Below are positions 5,698 through 27,877 of a stretch of 64,000 bases of DNA, in pieces. Each line of letters begins with the position of its first letter. Position 1 is the first letter of the stretch. The stretch is from Candidatus Methylomirabilota bacterium (GTDB taxonomy: Bacteria; Methylomirabilota; Methylomirabilia; Methylomirabilales; Methylomirabilaceae). The DNA is taken from NCBI GenBank assembly GCA_003104975.1, contig PQAM01000010.1, positions 424,577-488,576 of the forward strand. Direction: 5' to 3'. The notes beneath the pieces were generated by a model. It made no database searches. It saw nothing but the letters and a program-made list of their open reading frames with translations, and was not told the DNA's origin. The position numbers and the translations under genes are program-made.

Positions 5698-6359
<662 letters not shown>

Positions 6360-6467
6360 TGGCCGCTAACGAAGGCAGGCCATTCTGAGTTGAACCGGCG
6401 AAGCGACTCCCGTATGATAGGACGGTGAGGGCCGAACCGAGCACCCCACACAGCAAGGAGCCGCGTC

Positions 6468-6638
6468 ATGAAGAGCGGCGTCCGCATGCCGCAACGGGGC
6501 ACGGTGCAAGACGTACATCCCGCACGCCTGAACGCCGCACCCGCGCGTGACGCGGTGGAGGCAAAGACGGCCCGCCGCCTTGCCCTGCAGCTCGAATGCG
6601 GCGCGCAGGCGCGACTGACCGACCAGTCGGTTGCGTGA
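6468..6638 (+). CDS. Possible small protein of unknown function
   Basis: A 56-codon frame starting MKSGVRMPQRGTV, preceded by AAGGAG at good spacing. It is rich in Ala and Arg with one Cys and has no signal peptide or membrane segment. I recognise no family. It sits between a gmd scar and a glycosyltransferase module, a place where debris is expected, so it may be noncoding or a leftover. The ribosome site is the main argument for it. Confidence 0.3.
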   Translation: MKSGVRMPQRGTVQDVHPARLNAAPARDAVEAKTARRLALQLECGAQARLTDQSVA

Positions 6639-6704
6639 TCTCATGACCGGGAGCGGCTTCGCCTCATTCAACTCACTTGGGGATTGACCTCCGCGAGGTG
6701 GATC

Positions 6705-7007
6705 GTGACATCCCTCAAACGCGTGGTGCGCTGGATACTTGGCCTACCCAAGCCGATGGCGGTATGGGTGCTGCGCCGGACTCTCGCCAATCCTGACCTG
6801 AGGGCGCGCGCGCTGAACATACTGGCCGAATACCCTCGACTGTACCAATACCTGCGTGAGTTCGCTGCAAGGTCGGGATTATCGGAAAATACCATTGCGG
6901 CGGCATCTGCGCCGAATATATCAGCAGAAGAGATTCAGGCTCTGTCACCCCTTGCTGCTCGTATTTATGCCGACCTCAAAAAAGCCATTGATACGAAAAA
7001 GAACTGA
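6705..7007 (+). CDS. Small glycosyltransferase-associated protein
   Basis: 100 residues from a GTG at 6705 with GAGGTG a few bases upstream; a TTG at 6684 would add seven residues. It begins with a basic hydrophobic stretch (LKRVVRWILGLPKP) and ends with LSPLAARIYADLKKAI, a short helix seen near glycosyltransferases and in their linkers. Its stop overlaps the start of the following glycosyltransferase (TGATG), so the two are translationally coupled. It is probably a membrane-peripheral helper or split-off domain of that enzyme. No enzymatic motif is visible. Confidence 0.6.
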   Translation: MTSLKRVVRWILGLPKPMAVWVLRRTLANPDLRARALNILAEYPRLYQYLREFAARSGLSENTIAAASAPNISAEEIQALSPLAARIYADLKKAIDTKKN

Positions 7008-8467
7008 TGCGCCTCGTCATTGACCTCCAGTCGATGCAAACATGGAGCCGCTTTCGGGGCATCGGGCGTTATGCGGCCTCTTTGGTCAAGGTGCTGTTGC
7101 AGCAAGCCAGGGATTTCGATTACTGGATTGTACTGAACGATCAGGATGATCGTGACCTCGTTCGGATAAGGGAGTTATTTGCGGGACTGATCCCTCCGGA
7201 GAAAGTCGTGTCCTTCGCAGCGCCGCACGCCGTTAACGAAGCCTTCAGCGACAATGAATGGCGAGCCAGAGCGGCCGAATTGCTACGGTCTCACTTCCTC
7301 GCCGAAATGTCACCGGACATTGTGCTGACCGCAAGCCTTTTCGAACCCGAATCTGTTGTCTCCGTCGAACCACCGTCCAACCGTCATTATAAATCCGTCG
7401 TGATTCTTTATGACCTGATCCCGCTGGCAGAACCCAAGGTGTATCTGCCGAATCCGGTCGTGCGGCAATGGTATGGCAGGAAACTCGAATCGCTCCGTCA
7501 CGCAGATCTGGTGTTGACGATTTCAGACTATTCCAAGCGAGATGCCGTTGCAAGGTTGGGGCTGGACCCGGATCGGTGCGTCAATATCTCGGCGGCGGCT
7601 GATCTGTTCACTCCTGAAAGACTCACATCAAGTTCTCTTGATAATCACCGATCTCCAGGAGTGATTCCAAAAAATTCTGTCCTGTACGTCGGGGGCTTTG
7701 ATGTACGAAAGAATGTCGATAAGCTGGTTGCCGCATATTCTCGCCTCCCTCTCGCCATGAGAAGGTCCTACCCGCTCGTCCTTGTCGGGAAGATCGGAGA
7801 CGTGAATAGACACCGTCTCATGCGGGTAGCGAAAAAATCCGGTCTGGCCGCTGACGACCTACACTGTACAGGCTTTGTGTCCGATGAATCATTGGTCGCT
7901 CTCTACAGATCGTGTCGCTTATTCGTTTTTCCATCAAGTCATGAAGGGTTTGGACTGCCTCCGTTGGAAGCTATGCATTATGGCGCAGCCGTGATCGCCG
8001 CGGCAAGAACCAGCCTTATTGAAGTCGTGGGGTCTACGGAGGCGCTTTTTGACCCCGATGATGTTGCCGCACTGGCAACCCTCTTGAACAGGGGCCTCAC
8101 TGATGACCAGTTTCGCGCTCGCCTTATCGCGAACGGTTCAATTCAAGCCGCGAAATTCTCCTGGAGCGCGACGGCGCAAAAAGCGCTGCATGCGCTGACA
8201 GCCCTGGGCGCACAATCAACTACCGAGAAGGTTGACACGGTAGACGATAAACAGAGCAGTTATACGAGATTGATCAGCGCTCTCGCCGCAATCAACACCA
8301 ATTCCAGGCCGACCGACTCGGATCTCGTCGTGCTGGCGAAATCTATTGCTGTCAATATGAATGTTCTCAATGATCACTTTTTTGCAGATGCGCGACCTAC
8401 CGAGAATACTGCCCCCCTAGAATCTTCGCCTGCCGTTTTGCGTCGTCGAATATACGGAAAGAGTTAA
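7007..8467 (+). CDS. GT4-family glycosyltransferase
   Basis: 486 residues with GT-B architecture: the N-terminal acceptor half begins MRLVIDLQSMQTWSRFRGIGRY, the usual start of WbdA/mannosyltransferase-like GT4 proteins, where the glycine-rich turn (FRGIGRY) contacts the donor. The C-terminal half begins at VLYVGGFDVRKNV and carries the E-x7-E motif as EGFGLPPLE. About 90 extra residues follow the GT domain without recognised motifs. Coupled to the small protein upstream by a one-base overlap. A mannosyl or related donor is likely from the family, but linkage cannot be read from the sequence. It acts at the cytoplasmic face on a lipid-linked glycan. Confidence 0.88.
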   Translation: MRLVIDLQSMQTWSRFRGIGRYAASLVKVLLQQARDFDYWIVLNDQDDRDLVRIRELFAGLIPPEKVVSFAAPHAVNEAFSDNEWRARAAELLRSHFLAEMSPDIVLTASLFEPESVVSVEPPSNRHYKSVVILYDLIPLAEPKVYLPNPVVRQWYGRKLESLRHADLVLTISDYSKRDAVARLGLDPDRCVNISAAADLFTPERLTSSSLDNHRSPGVIPKNSVLYVGGFDVRKNVDKLVAAYSRLPLAMRRSYPLVLVGKIGDVNRHRLMRVAKKSGLAADDLHCTGFVSDESLVALYRSCRLFVFPSSHEGFGLPPLEAMHYGAAVIAAARTSLIEVVGSTEALFDPDDVAALATLLNRGLTDDQFRARLIANGSIQAAKFSWSATAQKALHALTALGAQSTTEKVDTVDDKQSSYTRLISALAAINTNSRPTDSDLVVLAKSIAVNMNVLNDHFFADARPTENTAPLESSPAVLRRRIYGKS

Positions 8468-8506
8468 GCTGCTTGTGCGCGTCAACTAACTTTGGGATTG
8501 ACTCTC

Positions 8507-10447
<1,941 letters not shown>

Positions 10448-10448
<1 letters not shown>

Positions 10449-11314
10449 TGGGAAGATTGCCTCGGATCTCGATTGTCACACCCTGCTTCAACCAGGGCCA
10501 CTTTTTAGAGACTACCATCAAGAGTGTGCTCTCCCAAGAATATGAAAATCTCGAATATATTGTAATCGACGGCGGATCCACGGATGGCAGTGTTGACATT
10601 ATCAAACGGTATGCCGACCGCCTTGCGTACTGGGTGAGCGAGCCCGACGGGGGGCAGGCCGAGGCCATCATCAAGGGCTTTCAACACTCTTCCGGCGAGA
10701 TCATGGGTTGGCTCAACTCCGACGACCTGTTGTTATCTGATTGTCTCACCGCGGTGGCCCGCACCTTTATCGGACTTCCAACGACGCAGATGATGTATGG
10801 GAATATCCTGATTATCGACGAGTATGGTCATGTGGTAAAAGAAGCTCGGCAGTTTCAGGTGGGATTTCATGAACTCTACTATGGTGGCCACATCATCAAT
10901 CAGGAGGCGACCTTTTGGACAAGGGGACTCTATGACAGGGCGGGAGGTCTGAACCGAAATTTATCGTACGCGATGGACTATGATCTATGGGTAAGAATGG
11001 CTGAGATTAGCCACCCCCTCCACGTTTCTCGCTACCTCGCAGCATTTCGTCGACATCCCTCACAGAAGACCACGCATATGGAGCTGTATCGCATGGAAAT
11101 GCAGGCGATTCAGGATCGGACTCGCTCCGCTAGAGGCGAAAACCCTTTTGCCTTTGCCGTGAAGTCGGGCCTATGTCAGACGCGCCTGATCTTACGCCGA
11201 TGCGCGGTGAAATTGTTGCGGACACGCCGGTACCCTGCGAAGAACCATAGAGCCGCGTATTTTGGCTTTGCAGCGGTCAAATCGGTTGGAAGAAAAAGCA
11301 AAAGATACGGATGA
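10448..11314 (+). CDS. GT2-family glycosyltransferase
   Basis: 288 residues from the ATG that overlaps the fcl stop (TGATG); a GTG 33 bases upstream is less likely. It has a GT-A fold: RISIVTPCFNQGHFLETTI at the N-terminus, YIVIDGGSTDGS, and the donor/metal site LNSDDLL (DxD-like). A central MDYDLWVRMAE matches the acceptor-side ED-like region of this subgroup, followed by a basic C-terminal tail. Being coupled to fcl, it may use GDP-fucose or simply belong to the same glycan. Family certain; sugar specificity unknown. Confidence 0.88.
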
Positions 11315-11318
11315 TCTG

Positions 11319-12107
11319 ATGGCGACATTAGACCGGAACTTATCCAGAATGAAAGATTCTCACAAATTCCAAAGGTGTTTCGTGGTGGGTAACGGTCCGT
11401 CTCTCAATAGAATGGATTTGGATAAGCTAAAGGATGATTTTGTTTTCTGTACCAACGCGTTTTTCCTGATGTTTCCCCGGATCAGATGGCGTCCTCAATA
11501 CTACACCTGCGTCGATACCCGCGTACTCCCGGATCGGGCACAAGACATCATTGCAATGCACAAAGCCCATCCTGAAATGGTCTGTTTTTTCCCGAAACAG
11601 GTCATTGACCACGCGACAAAAAGGGTGACGCCGACGGAGGAGATTATTCCGCCGGCGCTCAACCGTCTCTATTTCAACCAACAGGTTCCGTTGCGAGACA
11701 ATCTCCCGTTTTCAGCGTTCTCTCTCGAAGCGCATAACTATGTCATCCAGCCTTATACGGTGACGGTTACTGCATTGCAGCTTGCCTATTTTCTTGGTTT
11801 TGAACCGATTTATCTCATTGGTTGTGACACGAATTATGTTGTTCCCAACACTGTTTTCAAAGAAGGAGAAGAAACTGAGCACGGTAAGATGTTTTTTACA
11901 TCGACCGCAGACGATGATTCTAATCATTTTTCGCCAGACTATTTTGGAAAAGGACGAAAATGGCATAATCCACAGGTCGCCAATATGATTTGGCATTATC
12001 AAATGGCACACGAAGCGTTGTCCATTGCAGGCAGGCACATATACAACGCGACGGTTGGCGGCAAATTGGAGGTGTTCCCTCGTATCGATTTTAATGAGTT
12101 ATGCTGA
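11319..12107 (+). CDS. DUF115/MAF-like protein
   Basis: 262 residues from the ATG four bases after the preceding stop. The core begins RCFVVGNGPSLNRMDLDKLK, the signature of the DUF115 family (MptE-like, related to the Rossmann core of Maf flagellin glycosyltransferases), and continues with FCTNAFFL and the stretch YFLGFEPIYLIGCDTNY. Maf proteins transfer nonulosonic acids to flagellin and are longer; short versions like this occur in polysaccharide loci, often beside methyltransferases and glycosyltransferases. A sugar-transferase role is inference. It ends inside the start of the giant fusion protein (overlap of up to 7 bases). Confidence 0.7.
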   Translation: MATLDRNLSRMKDSHKFQRCFVVGNGPSLNRMDLDKLKDDFVFCTNAFFLMFPRIRWRPQYYTCVDTRVLPDRAQDIIAMHKAHPEMVCFFPKQVIDHATKRVTPTEEIIPPALNRLYFNQQVPLRDNLPFSAFSLEAHNYVIQPYTVTVTALQLAYFLGFEPIYLIGCDTNYVVPNTVFKEGEETEHGKMFFTSTADDDSNHFSPDYFGKGRKWHNPQVANMIWHYQMAHEALSIAGRHIYNATVGGKLEVFPRIDFNELC

Positions 12108-15100
12108 TGGACTTTTATATTCATCATCCAGGAAAAGCTGGTGAAGTGTTTCTTGGCCTTCCCATGGCAAAATTACTGAAGACGTATTATCCGACGTCAA
12201 AAATTATTTGGGTAGTTCTTGATTTATATCGCGATTCTATTGGGAATTATCCGTACATCGATAAAATAGAAACGATTCCTACGTATTCATGTAGCAGCTT
12301 GTCTGACGTCGCGGGACATATGAGTAAACATCGATGGTATGTTTGCCATTCCAAGCGTTGGATTGAAGATCATTATGGTATTCATATCGATGCATACTAT
12401 AATTATATGCTTTATCGAATTGATGATAATAGGTTTCGACTTCATCGCGATCCATTTTATCTCCAACTCTTTAAGAATGCCGCGCATTTTTGCTCTAACG
12501 CCGACGCAGTCGAGTCATGGATGCCACCAGAATGGTACCCTACGGAACAATCGATCGTCGATGGCGAGACATTTGAGAAGCTGTACGGAGGCGGACCGGT
12601 TGTTATCTTTTCCCCATATATCGCGGATCAATCGTGTGGGAATGATAACCAATCCAATTTCGACATGCGTTTCATTTATGAGCAGGTGGCGAAATGGAAT
12701 CTACCTGTGATAGCAACAGGGACGAAGTGGGATCCCAAAGATTTACCACCGTCGGTCGTAGACGGATACGCGCCTAACTTGAGCCTAGGCGGGCTATTGT
12801 ATCTGATCAAGAATCGCGCCGCGATTGTTATAACTCCAAATTCAGGTATAGGATTCGCGGCGCACTGGCTTGGCGCACCTGTTTTGATGATTGACAATCG
12901 GGTGGGATGGAAAGATCAGGTTGACGTATGGCGAAAGAAGGTACCAATTCTGGATGATCAAGCTCTTTCGCATGAGAAGCGGTGGCCACCCTTTACAAAA
13001 GAGAACTTTCATACGGAACATTTGTTGCCAGTACCATTCGAACAGCTAGAGTGGAACTACGACGAGTTTGCGCAAGCGTTAGCCCGCATTAAGCTTGCGA
13101 CGGTCAAGCCAGGTACAAACGGTAATTTCACGCCTCCGCTCCGCCGCGCAACTACAGGTGAAATGTACACTCACTTATCGATATCGACGACAAATCAACG
13201 AGCCGACTCGTATAAGGCGGAATATGCACCCAAGCCAAGCTTTAGATTAGATAACGGCGAATACCAATCATTGAAACTTCCGCGGCTCATTGTTTTCGAC
13301 CTTACGCGATGCGGAGACGGCACCGCAACGGGTAACGTTAAGGCTACACTTTTCAAAGGGTGGCCGGAAGCGCATTTCATGCAGTTTTACAGCCTTGGAT
13401 GCGATCGGATAGGCGTAGACGGTGCTGTGCCTGAGTTCATGGATAAGCGGGACGCGCTGACCGCCGAAGATATTTCGCGTCTGGTGCGTTCGTTTGCTCC
13501 GGAGGTCATCCTTTACAGGCCTGTTCCAAATAACTTGGCGCTTCACGAGGCGGCGATGGGTGTTATCCGGTCGGCTGACGTGCCGCTTGCTATCTGGATC
13601 ATGGATGATTGGCCCAGCCAACTTGCGGCAGAAGATCCACAATTATTCGCCCGGCTCGATTCAGATTTGCGCGAGTTGTTGGCTCGCGCGGATTTGAGAT
13701 TAAGCATATGTGATGCGATGTCAATCGCATTCGCCCAGCGATACAATGTGCCATTCAAGGCGTTCGCCAACGCAATTGATCCGCAGGATTGGCCTCCTCG
13801 TCGGCGTGGTGACACGAAGGCGAATACATTTGTGCTGCGGTATGCGGGCGCGCTTGCGAAAAACATGGTACTTGACAGCGTGCGACGTACCGCACAAGCC
13901 ATCGAGCGGCTGTCCAGCCGCGGCGTTGATATCCGTTTCGAGATCACCACTCACCCTTGTTGGCAGAAAACTGCAGAGCGAGAATTCACAATATTCCACA
14001 GGACGAGTATTAGCACCCTCAGGCCACATACTGCGTATCGCGAGTGGTTATCGCAAGCGGACGCCTTGTTGATCGCCTATAACTTCGATGAGGCATCAAA
14101 AAACTATGTACGATACTCGCTGGCGAACAAACTACCCGAGTGTTTGGCATCAGGTGCGGTAGTGATTGCGCATGGTCCTTCCGATGTGGCTACGATCGAT
14201 TATATAAGGTCGCTGGATTGCGCTGTTGTCGCTACAGAGGCAGACGAAGAGGCGCTTGCAACTGCTATCAAGGGACTGGTGGAAGACCCAGATCGTCGAC
14301 ACAATCTGTCTGAAAAGGCACGCGCCGTTGCTTTCGATGTCCACAATGTCCACCGCATTCGCCGCGCTCTGCATGCAGAGTTTCTTACAGTGGCAGCTCG
14401 GAGGAGGACGTCGGATGGTCAGGCACAATTTCCGGAATACGGACGTACCACACACGCACACATAGACGAAACGCAGGCGATCTCGACCCTGTTCTCCCCG
14501 TCAACCGACATCGAGCTTGTTATGATCGATGTCGGTGCGCACTTCGGAAGTAGCGCACGGCATTTTGTGGAGGAAACGTGGCGAGTCTACTGCTTTGAGC
14601 CTGATCCGGGCAATCGTCAACGCTTAATCGCTCAGTTCGGACGCGTCCCGAATGTCGTGATTGATGCCCGCGCCGTTGGGGCGCAGACGGAAAGAGGCAA
14701 GCCATTGTTCTCCTCACCTGAGAGCACAGGAATCAGTGCTCTTCACGCATTTCGCGACACGCATCAACAGGTCGGGCTGGTCGACGTCACCACCGTTGCA
14801 GAGATCGTGAAGGAACATAAGCTTGACCGCATCGATTTTCTGAAGATCGATGTGGAGGGCCATGATTTCGCCGTCTTGCGTGGTGTCCCGTGGGATCTTA
14901 TAAAGCCTGCCGTGATTGAGTGTGAGTTTGAGGATGCGAAGACCGTACCGCTCGGTCACACCTGGAAGGATATCGCCGAGTTTCTGGTCGCTAAGGGCTA
15001 TGTGGTTTACGTGAGCGAATGGCACCCGATCATCCGATATGGTATCCAGCATGACTGGTGCCGATTGTTTCGATATCCTGGGGCGTTGCGGGATCCTCAG

Positions 15101-17149
15101 GCTTGGGGAAATCTGTTGGCTTTTCGTGAAGATCCGGGGACGGAGGCCATCGCGGACGCGCTGCGCGCGTGTGTCAAGGTCAAACAGCCGCAGATAGCTT
15201 CTGAGATGGAACCATCGCAGCCACCGCAACCGTCTGGGGTGCCGGCGAAGAATGGTGAGGCAGTCCGTGTGACGAGTCAAGCAGCTCAGACACACGAAGG
15301 TGCAGTGTATGTCCGAAACGCCCCCAAAGAGACGCCGGTGGCTCACGTGAAAGTTGGTGCGACACCGCAGCATCAGGAACCGGCGAGCAAGGAGATGACT
15401 GCAAAGATAACGCCTAACCTCGATTCGTACCGCCGCCCCGCAGACAAGCTGACTGATAAGCATACGATGTTGCGGCCGTTCTTCAGGTTTTGTGACTGGA
15501 GCGTGGGGGCGATCGCGCGACACTGGCTCGGTGTGTCGGGAGCGGTGGTCATGGCCGGCATCCTGCTCGGCGCGGCGTTTTGGGTTGCGCCTGCGTTGTG
15601 GCCGTATTGGCTGATCGTATTGGGTCTTTTCATTTCAAGCGGGGTGCTGTTTCTGTGTGTCGGTTACGGACAGCATTTCTTCTCCCGCTATGCGGAAAAG
15701 CAGGCCGCCGAGCTCGGACAACAGACCGTGGGGGTGGCGCGGCTTCAAGGGGATATCGCTCGGTTGCGCAGCGAGATTGGGTCGGTCGTATCCACTCTCC
15801 GCAATGTCTGCGCGAGTGTGGACAAGGATCCACAATTGAAGGAATTACAGGAACGGTGCAAGACCCTTGAGGCGCAAATCTCAGCACATGTCGATGCCGT
15901 GCGGGTCCGACAAGACGCGCTCGATAACACTATAGCTGCGCGTGTAGACGAACTTGAGCGCGGTCTCGCGTCGGTGCAGGCGGCATCAGAATCCGCCGAC
16001 CGTGTGTTGGATGACGTCCGCGCGCAAGCCGCGGACGCGCTGGAAACGGTGCGGGTCCGACAAGACGCGCTCGATAACACTATAGCTGCGCGTGTAGACG
16101 AACTTGAGCGCGGTCTCGCGTCGGTGCAGGCGGCATCAGAATCCGCCGACCGTGTGTTGGATGACGTCCGCACGCAGGCCGCGGACGCGCTGGAAATGGT
16201 ACGGAACTCGCAAGCAACACTGGATACCATGATGGCGGCCCAGGTGGAGGAGATCACGCGGAGCCTGACGGCTTCGGCGGACGGCGTATTGGATGACGTC
16301 CGCGCGCAGGCTGCGGCGATCAAGACACTGGCGGCGGAGGCCGTCGACGCGGTACGGAGCCAAGATGCCGCCTTTCGTAAGCTGAATGCTTCGAATGCTT
16401 CGCTGGCGAGACCCTTCAATCGGTTTCTGAGCACGGACCACATCAGACGTCTCCAACAACACTGGTCGAAGGTGTTTGGAGTCACGATGTCTCCCTCGGC
16501 TATAAGTTATCTTGCGCATCGGATGTGTACAGCCGAGGATCAATGTGAGGGCCGTATTGCCTGTTCGATCGAGACCGCTATACTGCGACAGTACGCATTG
16601 AGGAGCCTGAAAGGCGATCGTATTGAGGTCCTTGAAATCGGCACGCTATTCGGGCTCGGAGCGGCGTTTCTGTATAAGTTTGCGGTACCGGACCAATCCG
16701 GAATTCGTCTCACGTTGATCGATCCGTTGGAAGGCTATTACGGCAACAATGTACTCGATCCCATCACCGGTGTTCCCGTCGATCGGCGAACCCTCGAATC
16801 GAATTTTGAGGTCCTGAAGATTCCCAGCAAGGACTGGCGGCTGATTCAACGTCTGAGCACTGACCCCGTCGCCGCGCAGGAGGCTGCCGATTGGCAGTAC
16901 GATCTGATTTTGATCGACGGCGATCACAGCGTTGCGGGAGTCACCCGCGATTACGAGATCTACGGGTCGATGGTAAAGCCGGGTGGGCTCGTCATCTTTG
17001 ATGATTATGACTCTGCGAGTTGGCCAAGTATCAAGCCGTTCGTCGACGAGCATGTGAAAACCGACGGTCGATGGATCTGGATCGGCGCCGAATGGAACAC
17101 GGCGATACTGCGGCGCCGTTATGATGAGGCATACGTCCGCGTAGATTAA
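12101..17149 (+). CDS. Giant fusion: GT9-like, GT4-like, FkbM methyltransferase, TM, coiled coil, methyltransferase
   Basis: 1,682 residues (a second ATG at 12107 overlaps the previous stop and is equally plausible). Order: ~1-330 heptosyltransferase (GT9)-like, with FLGLPMAKLL and VITPNSGIGFAAHWLGAP; ~385-785 GT4-like, with LANKLPECLASGAVVIAHGP; ~806-1005 FkbM methyltransferase (MIDVGAHFGSSARHF, CFEPDPGN, LKIDVEGHDFAVLRG); a low-complexity linker; two membrane segments (~1143-1190); a coiled coil (~1200-1430) with a 50-residue tandem repeat; ~1450-1682 a second SAM methyltransferase (VLEIGTLFGLG, LILIDGDHSV, GGLVIFDDYD). The first ~400 bases are A+T-rich while the rest is not, consistent with a recent fusion. 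It probably assembles and methylates, perhaps caps, a glycan at the membrane. The overall role is inference. Confidence 0.85.
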   Translation: MLMDFYIHHPGKAGEVFLGLPMAKLLKTYYPTSKIIWVVLDLYRDSIGNYPYIDKIETIPTYSCSSLSDVAGHMSKHRWYVCHSKRWIEDHYGIHIDAYYNYMLYRIDDNRFRLHRDPFYLQLFKNAAHFCSNADAVESWMPPEWYPTEQSIVDGETFEKLYGGGPVVIFSPYIADQSCGNDNQSNFDMRFIYEQVAKWNLPVIATGTKWDPKDLPPSVVDGYAPNLSLGGLLYLIKNRAAIVITPNSGIGFAAHWLGAPVLMIDNRVGWKDQVDVWRKKVPILDDQALSHEKRWPPFTKENFHTEHLLPVPFEQLEWNYDEFAQALARIKLATVKPGTNGNFTPPLRRATTGEMYTHLSISTTNQRADSYKAEYAPKPSFRLDNGEYQSLKLPRLIVFDLTRCGDGTATGNVKATLFKGWPEAHFMQFYSLGCDRIGVDGAVPEFMDKRDALTAEDISRLVRSFAPEVILYRPVPNNLALHEAAMGVIRSADVPLAIWIMDDWPSQLAAEDPQLFARLDSDLRELLARADLRLSICDAMSIAFAQRYNVPFKAFANAIDPQDWPPRRRGDTKANTFVLRYAGALAKNMVLDSVRRTAQAIERLSSRGVDIRFEITTHPCWQKTAEREFTIFHRTSISTLRPHTAYREWLSQADALLIAYNFDEASKNYVRYSLANKLPECLASGAVVIAHGPSDVATIDYIRSLDCAVVATEADEEALATAIKGLVEDPDRRHNLSEKARAVAFDVHNVHRIRRALHAEFLTVAARRRTSDGQAQFPEYGRTTHAHIDETQAISTLFSPSTDIELVMIDVGAHFGSSARHFVEETWRVYCFEPDPGNRQRLIAQFGRVPNVVIDARAVGAQTERGKPLFSSPESTGISALHAFRDTHQQVGLVDVTTVAEIVKEHKLDRIDFLKIDVEGHDFAVLRGVPWDLIKPAVIECEFEDAKTVPLGHTWKDIAEFLVAKGYVVYVSEWHPIIRYGIQHDWCRLFRYPGALRDPQAWGNLLAFREDPGTEAIADALRACVKVKQPQIASEMEPSQPPQPSGVPAKNGEAVRVTSQAAQTHEGAVYVRNAPKETPVAHVKVGATPQHQEPASKEMTAKITPNLDSYRRPADKLTDKHTMLRPFFRFCDWSVGAIARHWLGVSGAVVMAGILLGAAFWVAPALWPYWLIVLGLFISSGVLFLCVGYGQHFFSRYAEKQAAELGQQTVGVARLQGDIARLRSEIGSVVSTLRNVCASVDKDPQLKELQERCKTLEAQISAHVDAVRVRQDALDNTIAARVDELERGLASVQAASESADRVLDDVRAQAADALETVRVRQDALDNTIAARVDELERGLASVQAASESADRVLDDVRTQAADALEMVRNSQATLDTMMAAQVEEITRSLTASADGVLDDVRAQAAAIKTLAAEAVDAVRSQDAAFRKLNASNASLARPFNRFLSTDHIRRLQQHWSKVFGVTMSPSAISYLAHRMCTAEDQCEGRIACSIETAILRQYALRSLKGDRIEVLEIGTLFGLGAAFLYKFAVPDQSGIRLTLIDPLEGYYGNNVLDPITGVPVDRRTLESNFEVLKIPSKDWRLIQRLSTDPVAAQEAADWQYDLILIDGDHSVAGVTRDYEIYGSMVKPGGLVIFDDYDSASWPSIKPFVDEHVKTDGRWIWIGAEWNTAILRRRYDEAYVRVD
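15899..16198 (+). repeat. Two 150-bp in-frame tandem repeats within the coiled coil
   Basis: Units 15899-16048 and 16049-16198 are almost identical (only a few differences near the ends) and encode 50 residues each, starting VRVRQDALDNTIAARVDELE. A diverged partial third unit follows (to about 16320, ending in VLDDVRAQAA). The near-identity points to a recent duplication or continuing length change of the coiled coil, as seen in chain-length rulers. Confidence 0.95.
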
Positions 17150-17163
17150 CCTGAAGGCGTTCA

Positions 17164-18141
17164 ATGACCGGCAAAGGGAACCACAATACGCCAGCCTGTT
17201 CGCTCGTCATACGGTGCTTTAACGAGGAGGCGCATATAGGACGTCTACTTACCGGCATCATGGCGCAAACCCTCAAAGACGTCGAGATCATCGTTGTCGA
17301 TTCGGGCTCTACCGACGCCACCCTGTCGATCGCTTCACAATATCCTGTCAAGATCCTGACCATTACGCCGGAGCAATTCTCCTTCGGGAGATCGCTGAAC
17401 ATCGGGTGCGCCGCCGCCACTTCCGATTTTATTGCTATCGCGAGCGCGCACGTCTACCCGGTCTATACGGACTGGCTTGAACACCTGCTCAAGCCGTTCG
17501 CAGACTCGGGTGTAGCCATCGTGTACGGCAAACAGCGGGCCGATGGTGCCGCCAAGTACGCCGAGCATATGATCTATAAGAAATGGTACCCCGACGAGTC
17601 CACGACCGATCAACGACATCCCTTTTGCAACAACGCGAATGCGGCGATACGGCGCAGTCTTTTGGAGGCACACCCGTTCAATGAGGCACTGACGGGCCTC
17701 GAGGACTTGGATTGGGCGAAGAGGGCGATCGAGCGCGGAGAGAAGGTTGCCTACAGTGCTGAGGCTGAGATCGTCCATGTGCACAACGAAACTTTGACAC
17801 GAGTCTATCATCGCTATATGCGTGAGGCTATCGCGTTCAAGCACATCTATCCGCACGAGCGGTTCCGTTTCCTGGATTTCGTACGCCTGGTTGCGGGCAA
17901 TATCCTCTCCGATTGTTATTACGCCGCCCACGATAGGATGCTGGTCAAGAACGTGTCCCAGATCGTCTCGTTCAGATTCATGCAGTTCTGGGGGGCGCAT
18001 CGCGGCTTCAGCCGAAGGGCGTTGATCTCACAACAAGTGCGAAACCGCCTCTATTACCCCAACGGGTTGGCAAAAGCCGGCGCAGACGGGTCCGTTCGCG
18101 AAGCGGAAGGAGCCATCGAATATGAATGCAGGCATCATTGA
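17164..18141 (+). CDS. GT2-family glycosyltransferase (rhamnosyltransferase-like)
   Basis: 325 residues. GT-A fold: CSLVIRCFNEEAHIGRLLTG at the start, EIIVVDSGSTDAT, and a conserved FSFGRSLNIGC, where rhamnosyltransferase-like GT2 members usually read FNHGxxRN. The acceptor-side ED motif is in LTGLEDLDWAKRA. It lies 14 bases after the giant fusion protein, and its last 20 bases overlap the following cyclase gene, tying it to the enzyme cassette. It could transfer the product of that cassette, but this is only positional evidence. Confidence 0.88.
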   Translation: MTGKGNHNTPACSLVIRCFNEEAHIGRLLTGIMAQTLKDVEIIVVDSGSTDATLSIASQYPVKILTITPEQFSFGRSLNIGCAAATSDFIAIASAHVYPVYTDWLEHLLKPFADSGVAIVYGKQRADGAAKYAEHMIYKKWYPDESTTDQRHPFCNNANAAIRRSLLEAHPFNEALTGLEDLDWAKRAIERGEKVAYSAEAEIVHVHNETLTRVYHRYMREAIAFKHIYPHERFRFLDFVRLVAGNILSDCYYAAHDRMLVKNVSQIVSFRFMQFWGAHRGFSRRALISQQVRNRLYYPNGLAKAGADGSVREAEGAIEYECRHH

Positions 18142-18763
18142 TATTTCAGTGACGTTGGAAAAGGGTATGCCGGTATGGCCTGGAAGTATCGAATACACCC
18201 GCCGGCAGGACAGGTCCTTATCGAACGGAGATCTGTGCAACCGTTCGCAGATGCATATCGACATGCATATGGGAACCCATGTGGACGCCCCGTTGCATTT
18301 TCTTCGGGATGGGACCAGCGTCGACCAACTTGATTTGGCACTGTTCTGCGGACCGGCATATGTGGCGGACCTGACCCACGTAGGCGCAATAGGCGAATGT
18401 GAGCTCGCGGGTCTCGGGTTGCCTGAAGGCACCGTGCGCGTCCTATTCAAGACAGCCAACTCGTACCGGCTTTGGAGCAAAGAGGGATTTGACGCCGGCT
18501 TTGTGGGTCTGACGGGCGACGGCGCGGAGTGGCTGATCAAACACGGCATCAGGATGGTCGGCAACGACTATCTTTCGGTTCAAAGATACGGTGATGGGCC
18601 TGGTGTACATCATCTATTGCTCGGGGCGGGGATCGGTGTCCTTGAGGGGATCACGCTTGGACATGTTGAGCCGGGTGAATATGAACTGGTTTGCCTGCCG
18701 TTGAAGATCAAGGATGCCGAGGGAGCCCCCGCAAGGGCGGTCTTGAGATGGCCGATTCGATGA
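18122..18763 (+). CDS. Cyclase-family (kynurenine formamidase-like) metal hydrolase
   Basis: 213 residues of the PF04199 cyclase family, which contains kynurenine formamidase, polyketide cyclases and lactonases. IIDISVTLEKGMPVWPG at the N-terminus and MGTHVDAPLHF, the metal-binding HxGTHxDxPxH-type motif (here MHMGTHVDAPLH), are clear, and VGLTGDGAEWL matches the conserved second core. It overlaps the upstream glycosyltransferase by 20 bases and the next gene by 4. In this setting it more likely hydrolyses or lactonises a sugar-acid intermediate than N-formylkynurenine. The exact reaction cannot be told. Confidence 0.85.
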   Translation: MNAGIIDISVTLEKGMPVWPGSIEYTRRQDRSLSNGDLCNRSQMHIDMHMGTHVDAPLHFLRDGTSVDQLDLALFCGPAYVADLTHVGAIGECELAGLGLPEGTVRVLFKTANSYRLWSKEGFDAGFVGLTGDGAEWLIKHGIRMVGNDYLSVQRYGDGPGVHHLLLGAGIGVLEGITLGHVEPGEYELVCLPLKIKDAEGAPARAVLRWPIR

Positions 18764-19443
18764 TCAACGGCATCGCCGCCCTTGTTCCCATGAGGCACAC
18801 CAGCGAAAGGGTGCCCAGTAAAAATTATCGGCCGTTTCACGGCAAGCCCTTGTATCATCATATTCTCCGAACCCTCCTCGACTGTCCTTACGTTACGACC
18901 GTACTGATCGATACGGATTCGCCGTTTATACTTGAGGATGCTGCGAAGTATTTCCCCGAGGTACAGCTTGTCGAAAGACCGCAACATCTGAGGGGCGGCG
19001 AGGTGCCGATGAATGATGTGTTGCTCTACGACGTCACGCAGCTCAATCATGAGTGGTATCTGCAGACCCACAGCACGAATCCGTTATTGAAAACGGAGAC
19101 GATAGCGAGGGCCATTCAGGTGCTGCGGGATGGACTGCCCGAGCATGATTCGCTTTTTTCCGTCACGAGGGTACAGACCAGGTTCTGGGACGGAAACGGC
19201 AATCCCATCAACCATGATCCAAACACGCTCATTCGCACGCAGGATCTTTCTCCCATGTTTGAGGAAAACTCCAATATCTATATCTTCAGAGGAGACACCC
19301 TCAAGAGCAGAAGGACCAGGATCGGGCAACGACCTCTCATGTTTGAGATGAATCGGATCGAGGCGATCGATATCGACAATGAGACGGATTTCGCCATGGC
19401 GGAGATCCTGTATAGCTTGTTCAGAAAGGAGTTGGAGGGATGA
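18760..19443 (+). CDS. CMP-sugar-synthetase-like cytidylyltransferase
   Basis: 227 residues from the ATG in the ATGA overlap with the cyclase; an ATG at 18748 is the alternative. The N-terminus ALVPMRHTSERVPSKNYRPF is the nucleotide-binding signature of NeuA/PtmB/KdsB-type enzymes that activate acidic sugars with CTP, and LQTHSTNPLLKTETI and DIDNETDFAMAE are conserved family blocks. No NeuB-type condensing enzyme is present in the window, so the acid that is activated is unknown. Part of a four-gene overlapping cassette. Confidence 0.85.
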   Translation: MINGIAALVPMRHTSERVPSKNYRPFHGKPLYHHILRTLLDCPYVTTVLIDTDSPFILEDAAKYFPEVQLVERPQHLRGGEVPMNDVLLYDVTQLNHEWYLQTHSTNPLLKTETIARAIQVLRDGLPEHDSLFSVTRVQTRFWDGNGNPINHDPNTLIRTQDLSPMFEENSNIYIFRGDTLKSRRTRIGQRPLMFEMNRIEAIDIDNETDFAMAEILYSLFRKELEG

Positions 19444-20378
19444 ATTGGAGAATACTCGTCTCGGCGCCATACATGCAGCCAATCCCGGAAAAATATCGAA
19501 CAATCTTAGAGAAAAGCGGGTGTCAGCTCGTCGTTCCACCGGTTCAGGAGCGACTTTCCGAGGAGGAACTCCTTGGTTTAATCGAGGACATTGACGGCGT
19601 CATTTCAGGCGACGATAGGTTCAGTGAAAAGGTTTATCAAGCGGCGAAAAGGCTAAAAGTAGTCTCCAAATGGGGAACCGGTATCGACTCACTCAAAAAG
19701 GAGATAGCCTCCAAGTACGGGGTCATCATCAGGAACACGCCGAACGCCTTCACGGAACCGGTTGCAGACACCGTTCTCGGCTACATACTCTGCTTTGCCA
19801 GGCGACTGCCATGGATGGACCGAGATATGAAAAACGGTACGTGGAAGAGACTTTCCGGCACGTCCCTTCACGAACAAACCCTCGGCGTCATCGGTGTAGG
19901 TAATATCGGTAAAGCGGTGATAAGGCGTGCAGCGGCGTTCGGTATGCGTGTCCTCGGCAATGACATCATCGAAATCCCTCGAGACTTCTTGGAACGGACA
20001 ACGGTCGAAATGGTATCGAAGGAGGAACTGCTGAAGCAGTCGGATTTCGTAAGCCTCAATTGCGATTTGAACCCTACGAGCTACCATCTCATGAGCGGTC
20101 AGGAATTCGGGCTGATGAAGCGTGAGGCGTATCTCATCAATACAGCACGAGGCTCTGTTGTGGACGAGCCGAAACTGGTCAAAGCCCTTGAGGACAAGAA
20201 GATAGCCGGCGCCGGACTCGACGTCTTTGAGGTAGAACCATTGCCGCATAACAGTCTGTTGAGGCGGATGGACAACGTGTTGATGGCGCCGCATAATTCA
20301 AATGCGAGCCCCAGCGTCTGGGAGCGGATTCACGAAGCGACGGTTAAGAACCTTTTGGAGGAGCTGAGAAAGCCGTGA
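19440..20378 (+). CDS. D-2-hydroxyacid dehydrogenase (phosphoglycerate dehydrogenase-like)
   Basis: 312 residues, coupled by a 4-base overlap on each side. The NAD-binding motif is GVIGVGNIGKAVIRRAAAFG. The substrate/catalytic blocks are present: INTARGSVVDEPKLVKALED (Arg), GLDVFEVEPLP (Glu), and MAPHNSNAS (His). The protein lacks the C-terminal ACT domain of housekeeping SerA. It would interconvert a 2-hydroxy acid and 2-keto acid with NAD. In this operon a sugar-acid or glycerate-derived intermediate is a reasonable substrate, but unproven. Confidence 0.88.
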   Translation: MNWRILVSAPYMQPIPEKYRTILEKSGCQLVVPPVQERLSEEELLGLIEDIDGVISGDDRFSEKVYQAAKRLKVVSKWGTGIDSLKKEIASKYGVIIRNTPNAFTEPVADTVLGYILCFARRLPWMDRDMKNGTWKRLSGTSLHEQTLGVIGVGNIGKAVIRRAAAFGMRVLGNDIIEIPRDFLERTTVEMVSKEELLKQSDFVSLNCDLNPTSYHLMSGQEFGLMKREAYLINTARGSVVDEPKLVKALEDKKIAGAGLDVFEVEPLPHNSLLRRMDNVLMAPHNSNASPSVWERIHEATVKNLLEELRKP

Positions 20379-21118
20379 CCACGGCGCTTGTGACAGGCGT
20401 CTCAGGCGGGACCGGGAGAGCCGTGGCTCAAGCCTTTGTGAAGGCGGGATGGAAGGTTTTCGGTGTAGATAAAATCGAGCAGACGGAGCCTGTAAGGGGG
20501 CTGAGGTTCCTGAAAGCGGACCTGGCTCAGGCCGAAGAACTCGACAACATCTTGAGGCCGGTAGTCTCTGAGGTTGGACGGCTCGATGCCTTGGTGAACA
20601 ATGCGGCGCACCAAGACTGCGGTCCCATCGCGGATGTGGAGATCAGCGACTGGGATAGAGTGATGGCGGTCAACCTCCGCGCCATATACCTGGCGATCCG
20701 AATCTTGAAACCTGTCCTGGGAAGGGGCAGTTCCATCGTCAACATCAGCTCGGTGCATGCATGTGCCAGCTCGTCCAACATATCGGCCTACGCTGCCAGC
20801 AAAGGGGGCGTGCTCGCCTTCACAAGGGCCCTGGCTGTAGAACTCGGTAAGGAGGGTATAAGGGTGAACGCCATACTCCCCGGAGCTATCGACACTCAGA
20901 TGTTGAGGGATGGACTCGACAGGGGGCATCTCACGGGGGACTCTTTAGATGAAAGGCTCAAATCCCTTGGTGCGCGGATACCGATAGGCCGTGTCGGACG
21001 GCCGGAAGAAATCGCCCAGGCGGTGTTATTCCTTGCCGACAATGAGAGGGCTTCCTTCATAACAGGTACGGGGCTTGTCGTCGACGGAGGAGCGTTGGCC
21101 AAGCTCAGCACAGAATGA
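20375..21118 (+). CDS. Short-chain dehydrogenase/reductase
   Basis: 247 residues starting with GTG in a 4-base overlap with the previous gene. A classical SDR: TGVSGGTGRAVAQ cofactor motif, VNNAA, the catalytic Ser in IVNISSVHAC, Tyr-x3-Lys as YAASK, and the C-terminal INGxxxxVDGG variant FITGTGLVVDGG. In Campylobacter an SDR (PtmA) and a cytidylyltransferase (PtmB) act together in flagellar nonulosonate synthesis, and this pairing is similar. It is the last gene of the cassette; a broken gmd follows after 45 bases. Confidence 0.87.
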   Translation: MTTALVTGVSGGTGRAVAQAFVKAGWKVFGVDKIEQTEPVRGLRFLKADLAQAEELDNILRPVVSEVGRLDALVNNAAHQDCGPIADVEISDWDRVMAVNLRAIYLAIRILKPVLGRGSSIVNISSVHACASSSNISAYAASKGGVLAFTRALAVELGKEGIRVNAILPGAIDTQMLRDGLDRGHLTGDSLDERLKSLGARIPIGRVGRPEEIAQAVLFLADNERASFITGTGLVVDGGALAKLSTE

Positions 21119-26623: not shown

Positions 26624-27877
26624 CTACAATTCAACAAGGTACGATGTGGCCTTGTTGTGCAGCGCGCTCAGCCACTGAAGCGGCGGTTTTCCAGTGCCGT
26701 GCCCCTCGCCGAACCGGCCGATGAAGTCCTCGACGAGACGCAGGTGTACGACGCGCCAATCAAGTGGGATCGCCTGGATGAGGGCATTATACGCCTGCAC
26801 GAGTGGGCGGTTGTGCGTGCGCTCCAAAACGAACGAACGAATCTTCGACGTCCGCTTGACGCGTTCGATGAGATCCCGAAACGGCTTCGCCATGTAGCCT
26901 CGCATGCGCGGAAAATACGGGTCGTCATCGTGGTCAATGCCGGCCGCCGCAAGCTGGAAATGCATGAACGGGGTTTGTCCTCCCGTTTCACCCAACTTCT
27001 GTTGAGGCTCGCCCCCCAGTTCCTCTACGCCGTCGAACACGACGCTGTTGGGGAAGGTGAAGAAGAGGCGCACCCGATTGAAGTATGTCCCATAGTCGCA
27101 GTGCTCCCGCATCCGCTTGAGGATCGCAACGGCATCTCGCGCAGCCCTTGTAGCGTTCTCCAGACATCGAATCATCTCTTGAACGATCACGTTGTCCTCA
27201 CGTTGTCGTACGGAGGGGATCGAACTGTCGTGGTTGTAGACGCTGGAAAGGAGGCAGGCCGTAAGCAGTTCCGATATCGCCGGCGCATAGGCCACTTCAA
27301 CCGCCTGGTGGATCCGCACAAACCACCGCTCATCCAGCGTGCCGGTAAAGGAATGGATCAGCTCGATATTCTCCACGCTTACCGATTGTCCGGGATTGTT
27401 GCGGTAGTAGTTCCAGAGGGCGTACAGGCTATAGGACATGGTGGGTTCTATGCCGATCCGCCTCGCAGCACGCCAGAGCGGTACCGCCAGTTGCGCGGGT
27501 AGGATCTTCGGGCTCTGATCCTGCATCAGCTCGGAGACAGTGCGGTAGGGGCAGACCTCCCGAAAGTAGGCGTGCGTGACCATGGCGTAGATCAACATCA
27601 GGCGGTGAACCACCGGCCATGGCAGATCCTCGAACGACCAGCGGGGGACATCCAGGCGCGCGACCGCGTCGGCGACTCGCCGTTCGCCAATCGTCTGTTC
27701 GAGCGCGTAGGCCATCGCGTCAAGGCGCTCGAACTCTTTCGACTGCGAAGCTTGACCGGCACCCTTCGGCAGCCATCGCAACGGTTGTTCCGCGAGAAAC
27801 CCGGTCTCGAACGATACGCCATGCTGTTCCATGAGCGGTCTAACGTGGTTCCGAAGCTCAGCGACATCATTGTTCAT
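26624..27877 (-). CDS. Indoleamine 2,3-dioxygenase-like heme protein
   Basis: 417 residues. The layout follows the IDO family: LPWPVVHRLMLIYAMVTHAY, LPAQLAVPLWRAARRIGI, MSYSLYALWNYY, SFTGTLDERWFVRIH, a GGQ core (LGETGGQTPFMHF), RNFL-like MRGYMAKPFRDLI, and WRVVHLRLVEDFI, whose His (about 378) aligns with the proximal heme ligand, followed by a GTG motif (GTGKPPLQWL). The family opens the indole ring of tryptophan to give N-formylkynurenine; bacterial members may have other substrates. Single gene, convergent with comB. Its start codon touches a repeat element. Confidence 0.78.
   Translation of the reverse strand: MNNDVAELRNHVRPLMEQHGVSFETGFLAEQPLRWLPKGAGQASQSKEFERLDAMAYALEQTIGERRVADAVARLDVPRWSFEDLPWPVVHRLMLIYAMVTHAYFREVCPYRTVSELMQDQSPKILPAQLAVPLWRAARRIGIEPTMSYSLYALWNYYRNNPGQSVSVENIELIHSFTGTLDERWFVRIHQAVEVAYAPAISELLTACLLSSVYNHDSSIPSVRQREDNVIVQEMIRCLENATRAARDAVAILKRMREHCDYGTYFNRVRLFFTFPNSVVFDGVEELGGEPQQKLGETGGQTPFMHFQLAAAGIDHDDDPYFPRMRGYMAKPFRDLIERVKRTSKIRSFVLERTHNRPLVQAYNALIQAIPLDWRVVHLRLVEDFIGRFGEGHGTGKPPLQWLSALHNKATSYLVEL

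Follow-up and report, generated by a model that had tools for sequence, protein, structure and literature searches.

The stretch analysed here, hereafter the window, comprises 64,000 nucleotides of contig PQAM01000010.1 (positions 424,577 to 488,576 of the forward strand; assembly GCA_003104975.1) from the 3.0 Mb genome of a Candidatus Methylomirabilota bacterium. It contains a cassette of five genes, encoding a GT2 glycosyltransferase, a cyclase-fold hydrolase (CYC), a NeuA-like cytidylyltransferase (CT), a D-2-hydroxyacid dehydrogenase (HADH), and a short-chain dehydrogenase/reductase (SDR), which is considered here as a candidate module for making a CMP-activated acid (Table 1). All five proteins match their Pfam families far above the cut-offs. 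The genes are tightly packed: GT2 and CYC share 20 bases, and three successive 4-base overlaps join CYC to CT, CT to HADH, and HADH to SDR, with the CT start (ATGA, 18760) lying over the CYC stop, followed by the HADH start (ATGA, 19440) and the SDR start (GTGA, 20375). Alternative starts of CT lie at ATG 18748 and at 18691. An earlier note, made from the sequence alone, had described this arrangement, and the start and stop positions read from the sequence agree with it. It had also remarked that no condensing enzyme of the NeuB or KdsA type is present; indeed, neither gene adjoins the cassette, although NeuB and NeuA genes, which the note did not mention, exist on another contig (C8) of the genome. 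The GC content of the cassette region is 49–57%, against approximately 58–65% across most of the second half of the window.

Table 1. Genes of the cassette, followed by other genes of the window referred to in the text
Feature	Position	Strand	Family match
GT2 glycosyltransferase	17164-18141	+	PF00535, 86 bits
CYC, metal-dependent hydrolase of the KynB/isatin-hydrolase fold, putative lactonase	18122-18763	+	PF04199, 83 bits
CT, NeuA-like cytidylyltransferase, predicted CMP-acid synthetase	18760-19443	+	PF02348, 100 bits
HADH, D-2-hydroxyacid dehydrogenase	19440-20378	+	PF02826/PF00389
SDR, putative sugar C1 dehydrogenase	20375-21118	+	PF13561
Maf/MptE-like protein, candidate CMP-acid transferase	11262-12107	+	PF01973, 40.4 bits (cut-off 34.6)
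1682-aa fusion of a glycosyltransferase-like region, an FkbM methyltransferase domain, and a second methyltransferase domain	12101-17149		
Second GT2	10415-11314		
Indoleamine 2,3-dioxygenase family gene	26624-27877	-	

A profile scan with CT over 84,980 species genomes yields at least 570 relatives, the best 80 of which were kept. The module is seen in Chloroflexota, cyanobacteria, Planctomycetota, Bacteroidota, Nitrospirota, deltaproteobacteria, and Methanosarcina. The order GT2-CYC-CT-HADH-SDR is found, for example, in a Methanosarcinales archaeon (L020), a Methanosarcina isolate (L071), deltaproteobacteria (L021 and L038), Bacteroidota (L028), Zixiibacteriota (L043), Nitrospiraceae (L049), and Geitlerinema (L067). 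The earlier note had proposed a genome search for the four-gene set as a check, and the same genes in the same order turn up in many phyla; because identical genes in identical order recur so widely, the cassette is more than a chance arrangement. Where 3 kb of sequence is available to either side of CT (61 loci), HADH lies within this distance in 46, SDR in 33, GT2 in 32, and CYC in 12, whereas a zone at 4.4–7.4 kb from CT (46 loci with longer flanks) contains HADH in 4, SDR in 8, and neither GT2 nor CYC in any. The pairwise distance matrices correlate for most pairs of cassette proteins, most strongly for GT2 and CT (r 0.84), with no significant correlation for CYC and HADH or for CYC and SDR.

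Even sampling of whole groups shows CT in 26 of 390 genomes of cyanobacteria and 38 of 400 of Chloroflexota. Of the loci read, 22 of 27 from cyanobacteria and 17 of 30 from Chloroflexota have HADH within 1.5 kb of CT. Among 385 alphaproteobacterial genomes, 7 match a roseobacter member. Elsewhere in the source phylum (95 genomes), no CT is found at E < 1e-15 except one distant copy, which has 30% identity and adjoins a NeuB-like gene. Since CT is thus nearly confined to one genome of the phylum, a recent acquisition of the cassette by the source genome is likely. Neither the gene set nor hexulosonic-acid pathways were found described in the open-access papers searched, and the module is apparently widespread but undescribed. 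Two nearly identical loci, L057 and L076, are filed as Anaerolineae and Alphaproteobacteria metagenome-assembled genomes, at least one of which has probably been misbinned; L076 and L110 are the same locus, and these copies were not counted as independent evidence.

The CT itself retains the architecture of the NeuA fold. Residues R21, K25, N26, D208, and D210 are invariant across the cassette copies, and both the Asp pair and the N-terminal motif of the fold are in place. The nearest fold to the predicted structure (pLDDT 86) is that of the CMP-Neu5Ac synthetase of Vibrio cholerae, followed by CMP-Kdn synthetase; CMP-Pse synthetase is also among the best folds, and 6ifd and 9t4z are matched. 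Against the PseF equivalog model, CT reaches 79.9 bits, below the cut-off of 205.7, and other cassette CTs reach 77–84. Against the KdsB models, it reaches 27.1 bits (cut-off 255, PRK13368) and 25.4 bits (cut-off 193); together with its separate clade, these scores speak against a plain CMP-Kdo synthetase, an identity that the earlier note had named as fatal to its proposal. In a tree of 73 CTs, all 50 of the cassette type fall into one group (SH-aLRT 98) and all 22 NeuB-linked sequences, including the one on C8 of the source genome, fall outside it, in a tree built by a quick method with several long branches and with cassette rows picked as nearest matches. Plasmid matches (H6, H7, and H27; 27–34% identity) proved to be NeuB-linked capsule cytidylyltransferases rather than members of the module. 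In Bacteroidota, loci L033, L040, L053, L065, and L069 carry a cassette-clade CT beside an enoyl-CoA hydratase, without an adjacent HADH, and mostly also a conserved protein of 437 residues that matches no Pfam family.

In whole-genome searches, a true NeuB was not found in 17 of 49 cassette genomes, which contain only DAHP-synthase-like matches or none; two of these carriers (L019 and L038) are closed chromosomes. Eleven of the 49 have neither NeuB nor KdsA above the cut-off, and the isolates Methanosarcina sp. 2.H.T.1A.6 and Geitlerinema sp. P-1104 have zero matches to either. The 11 double-negative genomes are drafts and may miss genes, but they would hardly miss both in all 11. The cassette, therefore, does not always accompany a known nonulosonate pathway, the circumstance in which the earlier note would have given up its idea of a new CMP-acid route without a condensing enzyme; as an alternative, it had suggested that the cassette completes a pathway located elsewhere. 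Of that idea, the independence from NeuB and KdsA is strengthened, while the activity of the enzymes and the identity of the acid gain no support. Judged from gene content, the cassette would very probably make its CMP-acid independently of NeuB and KdsA.

The two dehydrogenases possess intact catalytic sites. In HADH, R237, E266, and H285 are kept in 66 copies, together with an NAD-type Asp175 after the GxGxxG motif; in SDR, S126, Y139, and K143 and an NAD-type Asp32 are conserved across the cassettes. The NAD-type Asp in both enzymes fits an oxidative direction, without being proof of it. Furthermore, the best relatives of SDR with solved structures are annotated as glucose 1-dehydrogenase. 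In CYC, the KynB active-site set is conserved across the cassettes (W19, H49-x-G-T-H53-x-D55-x-P-x-H59, S152, H163, and E175), corresponding to the two-metal active-site residues named for KynB (PMC4243253). CYC is the sole PF04199 protein in the source genome, and this family includes trans-dienelactone hydrolase and esterase (PMC5341072). Its score on the kynurenine formamidase model TIGR03035 is 141.9 bits, below the cut-off of 223.05, and cassette copies in other phyla score 147–155.

The partner genes offer a hint to the role of CYC. An SMP-30/gluconolactonase gene (PF08450) directly follows SDR in L064 and L106, lies next to the cassette in L089, and is found no more than 8 kb away in L013 and L016. 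CYC is missing from all five of these loci, and SMP-30 occurs in 0 of 19 CYC loci, an exclusion that alone is not statistically strong. The presence of SMP-30 only in CYC-less cassettes suggests that CYC opens a sugar lactone, and the chemistry of a hydroxy acid and a lactone, which the earlier note had proposed, gains support from a gluconolactonase in place of the cyclase.

These features can be arranged into a putative pathway. SDR would oxidise C1 of a sugar with NAD+ to the lactone, which CYC, as a two-metal hydrolase, would open to the sugar acid, with SMP-30/gluconolactonase substituting in some cassettes. HADH would then oxidise the C2 hydroxyl to give a 2-keto acid, which could close to a ketose ring while the C3 hydroxyl is kept. 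CT, whose fold and residues are those of a CMP-acid synthetase, is predicted to join this 2-keto acid to CMP, and the PF01973 Maf-like protein, or the DxD-less GT2, would transfer the acid to a glycan or a protein. Taken as a whole, the oxidative route from sugar through lactone, sugar acid, and 2-keto acid to CMP-acid has a chance slightly short of even, as far as the sequences allow.

The Maf-like gene, absent from the earlier note, encodes a single-domain protein of 281 residues, the sole PF01973 protein of the source genome. In Foldseek, the best matches of its model (pLDDT 80) are Maf (5mu5, E 1.7e-7), CstII (1ro8, E 7.7e-5), and ST6GALNAC2 with CMP, at modest TM-scores of 0.38–0.47; the identity to 5mu5 is 17%. 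In many cassettes, a PF01973 gene lies directly 3' of SDR, and one is present within 6.5 kb in 41 of 68 loci with CT and HADH versus 1 of 17 loci with CT only (Fisher p 6e-5, kinship ignored). PF01973 enzymes of the Maf type use CMP-linked nonulosonates and CMP-Kdo as donors (PMC11339370). Because of the cassette linkage, the fold match, and this use of CMP-sugars, the PF01973 protein is the leading candidate for the transferase, and the conserved GT2 is the other candidate. In all 44 copies of this GT2, the DxD motif is replaced by S-[A/G]-H, whereas the second GT2 of the window retains NSDD; the DxD-less enzyme might accept a CMP-sugar as its donor in a metal-independent manner. The 1682-aa fusion gene is situated between the Maf-like gene and the cassette.

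At the level of sequence, the module is conserved, its catalytic residues are intact, its CT forms a distinct clade, and it occurs independently of NeuB and KdsA. That the cassette is a synthesis module for a CMP-activated 2-ulosonic acid, free of NeuB and KdsA and serving a surface glycan, is for us an evenly balanced proposition. Several points weigh against it. The association statistics ignore shared ancestry, and CT stands alone in 13 loci. Among sequence models, HADH scores best against phosphoglycerate dehydrogenase and glyoxylate reductase, which are not sugar-acid enzymes. In 35 loci that possess HADH and SDR, neither CYC nor SMP-30 is nearby, although sugar lactones can also open spontaneously. 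Given its complete KynB active site, CYC may possibly hydrolyse an amide. In addition, approximately five independent loci have an HpcH/HpaI aldolase instead of SDR, and the carbon skeleton may arise differently there.

These aldolase loci (L012, L025, L108, L109, and L076, with the near copy L057) join the aldolase, a HAD phosphatase, and an epimerase to CT, usually with HADH and without SDR, and they lend some weight to the most durable alternative. According to it, the acid arises by aldol condensation with pyruvate or hydroxypyruvate through an unlinked HpcH/HpaI-type aldolase, while HADH supplies hydroxypyruvate and SDR and CYC tailor the product. However, the main form of the cassette has no linked aldolase, and none of 7 loci combines the aldolase with SDR, a pattern suggestive of two alternative routes; this explanation is unlikely. 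We interpret the aldolase variant as another route into the same activation step.

Somewhat more doubtful still is the explanation that CT activates a nonulosonate or Kdo supplied by NeuB or KdsA elsewhere, with CYC, HADH, and SDR only modifying the acid. The fold of CT is nearest to the CMP-Neu5Ac and CMP-Kdn synthetases, several Chloroflexota cassettes lie approximately 3 kb from a NeuB gene, and the source genome itself contains NeuB (C8:90312) and NeuA (C8:94198) as well as a KdsB-like gene on C18. Yet the carriers lacking NeuB, or both NeuB and KdsA, would be left without a supplier, and at most NeuB-linked loci there is a second CT of their own, which falls outside the cassette clade. 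The same applies to the source genome, where the NeuB cluster on C8 has its own NeuA and is therefore not a natural supplier for the cassette CT. This cluster, at 6088-12867 of locus L007 (C8:84000-103000), contains NeuB, an SDR, an aldehyde dehydrogenase, a NeuA-like gene, and a transketolase in a row, and represents a second, different acidic-sugar pathway; its NeuB and NeuA do not reach the equivalog cut-offs for NeuB, PseI, and PseF. Weak NeuB matches on C18 and C6 are DAHP synthases. In the Chloroflexota loci L030, L032, L068, L070, L073, L085, L092, and L094, NeuB and a second CT stand beside the cassette, placing two CMP-acid pathways next to each other.

A CMP-linked small 2-hydroxy or 2-keto acid, resembling glycerate or lactate rather than a sugar acid, would agree with an HADH nearest to phosphoglycerate and glyoxylate/hydroxypyruvate reductases; such a product is improbable, since CT retains the NeuA fold together with the metal site that serves for cyclic ulosonic acids, and the SDR and SMP-30 partners point to sugars. 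Finally, the indoleamine 2,3-dioxygenase family gene 5.5 kb from the cassette and the KynB active site might mark CYC as a kynurenine formamidase lying here by accident, an identity rejected as highly improbable on its sub-cut-off TIGR03035 score, the lack of any kynureninase above the cut-off in the source genome, and the company of CT and HADH in 19 loci.

Returning to the proposed oxidative synthesis of a CMP-ulosonic acid, the cassette shares parts with several known systems and differs from each. In the CMP-nonulosonate pathways (Neu5Ac, Kdn, Pse, and Leg; NeuA/PseF/PtmB), the cytidylyltransferase has the same fold and catalytic residues, a Maf-like transferase is likewise nearby in the cassette, and the product is presumably also a CMP-linked acidic sugar; however, the cassette needs no NeuB-type enzyme, and its CT, which forms a clade of its own and scores far below the PseF cut-off, is partnered by CYC, HADH, and SDR. 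With the CMP-Kdo pathway (KdsA, KdsC, and KdsB), it would have in common the CTP activation of an ulosonic acid, in contrast to the low KdsB scores of its CT and the 11 genomes without KdsA and NeuB. The PF01973 protein of the window resembles in its model the central domain of Maf flagellin glycosyltransferases and the GT42 enzyme CstII, but unlike the three-domain flagellin transferase, it has one domain and sits in a polysaccharide cluster. Oxidative sugar catabolism, with its sugar dehydrogenase, lactonase, and sugar-acid enzyme, follows a similar SDR and lactonase logic, including SMP-30/gluconolactonase; it ends in a dehydratase and an aldolase, whereas the cassette ends in a 2-hydroxyacid dehydrogenase and CTP activation. 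Compared with bacterial KynB, CYC has identical active-site residues but scores below the equivalog cut-off and sits in glycan cassettes. A title in the reference list of PMC10433991 names a 4-deoxy-2-hexulosonic acid as a constituent of the E. coli K3 capsule, which indicates only that unusual ulosonic acids occur.

Together with a nearby sialyltransferase-like transferase, the gene set probably makes a sialic-acid-like sugar acid and attaches it to cell-surface glycans without the usual carbon-joining enzyme. More tentatively, and with the balance somewhat against it, many bacterial phyla and methanogenic archaea may produce CMP-ulosonic acids that keep the C3 hydroxyl, derived from direct sugar oxidation and attached by small Maf-like transferases. 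The predicted oxidative route is specific and testable with four small enzymes. Genome annotation takes NeuA-like genes as a sign of sialic-acid-like sugars; should the module produce another acid through oxidation, a considerable fraction of NeuA-like genes would instead point to an unrecognised glycan building block, in archaea as well.

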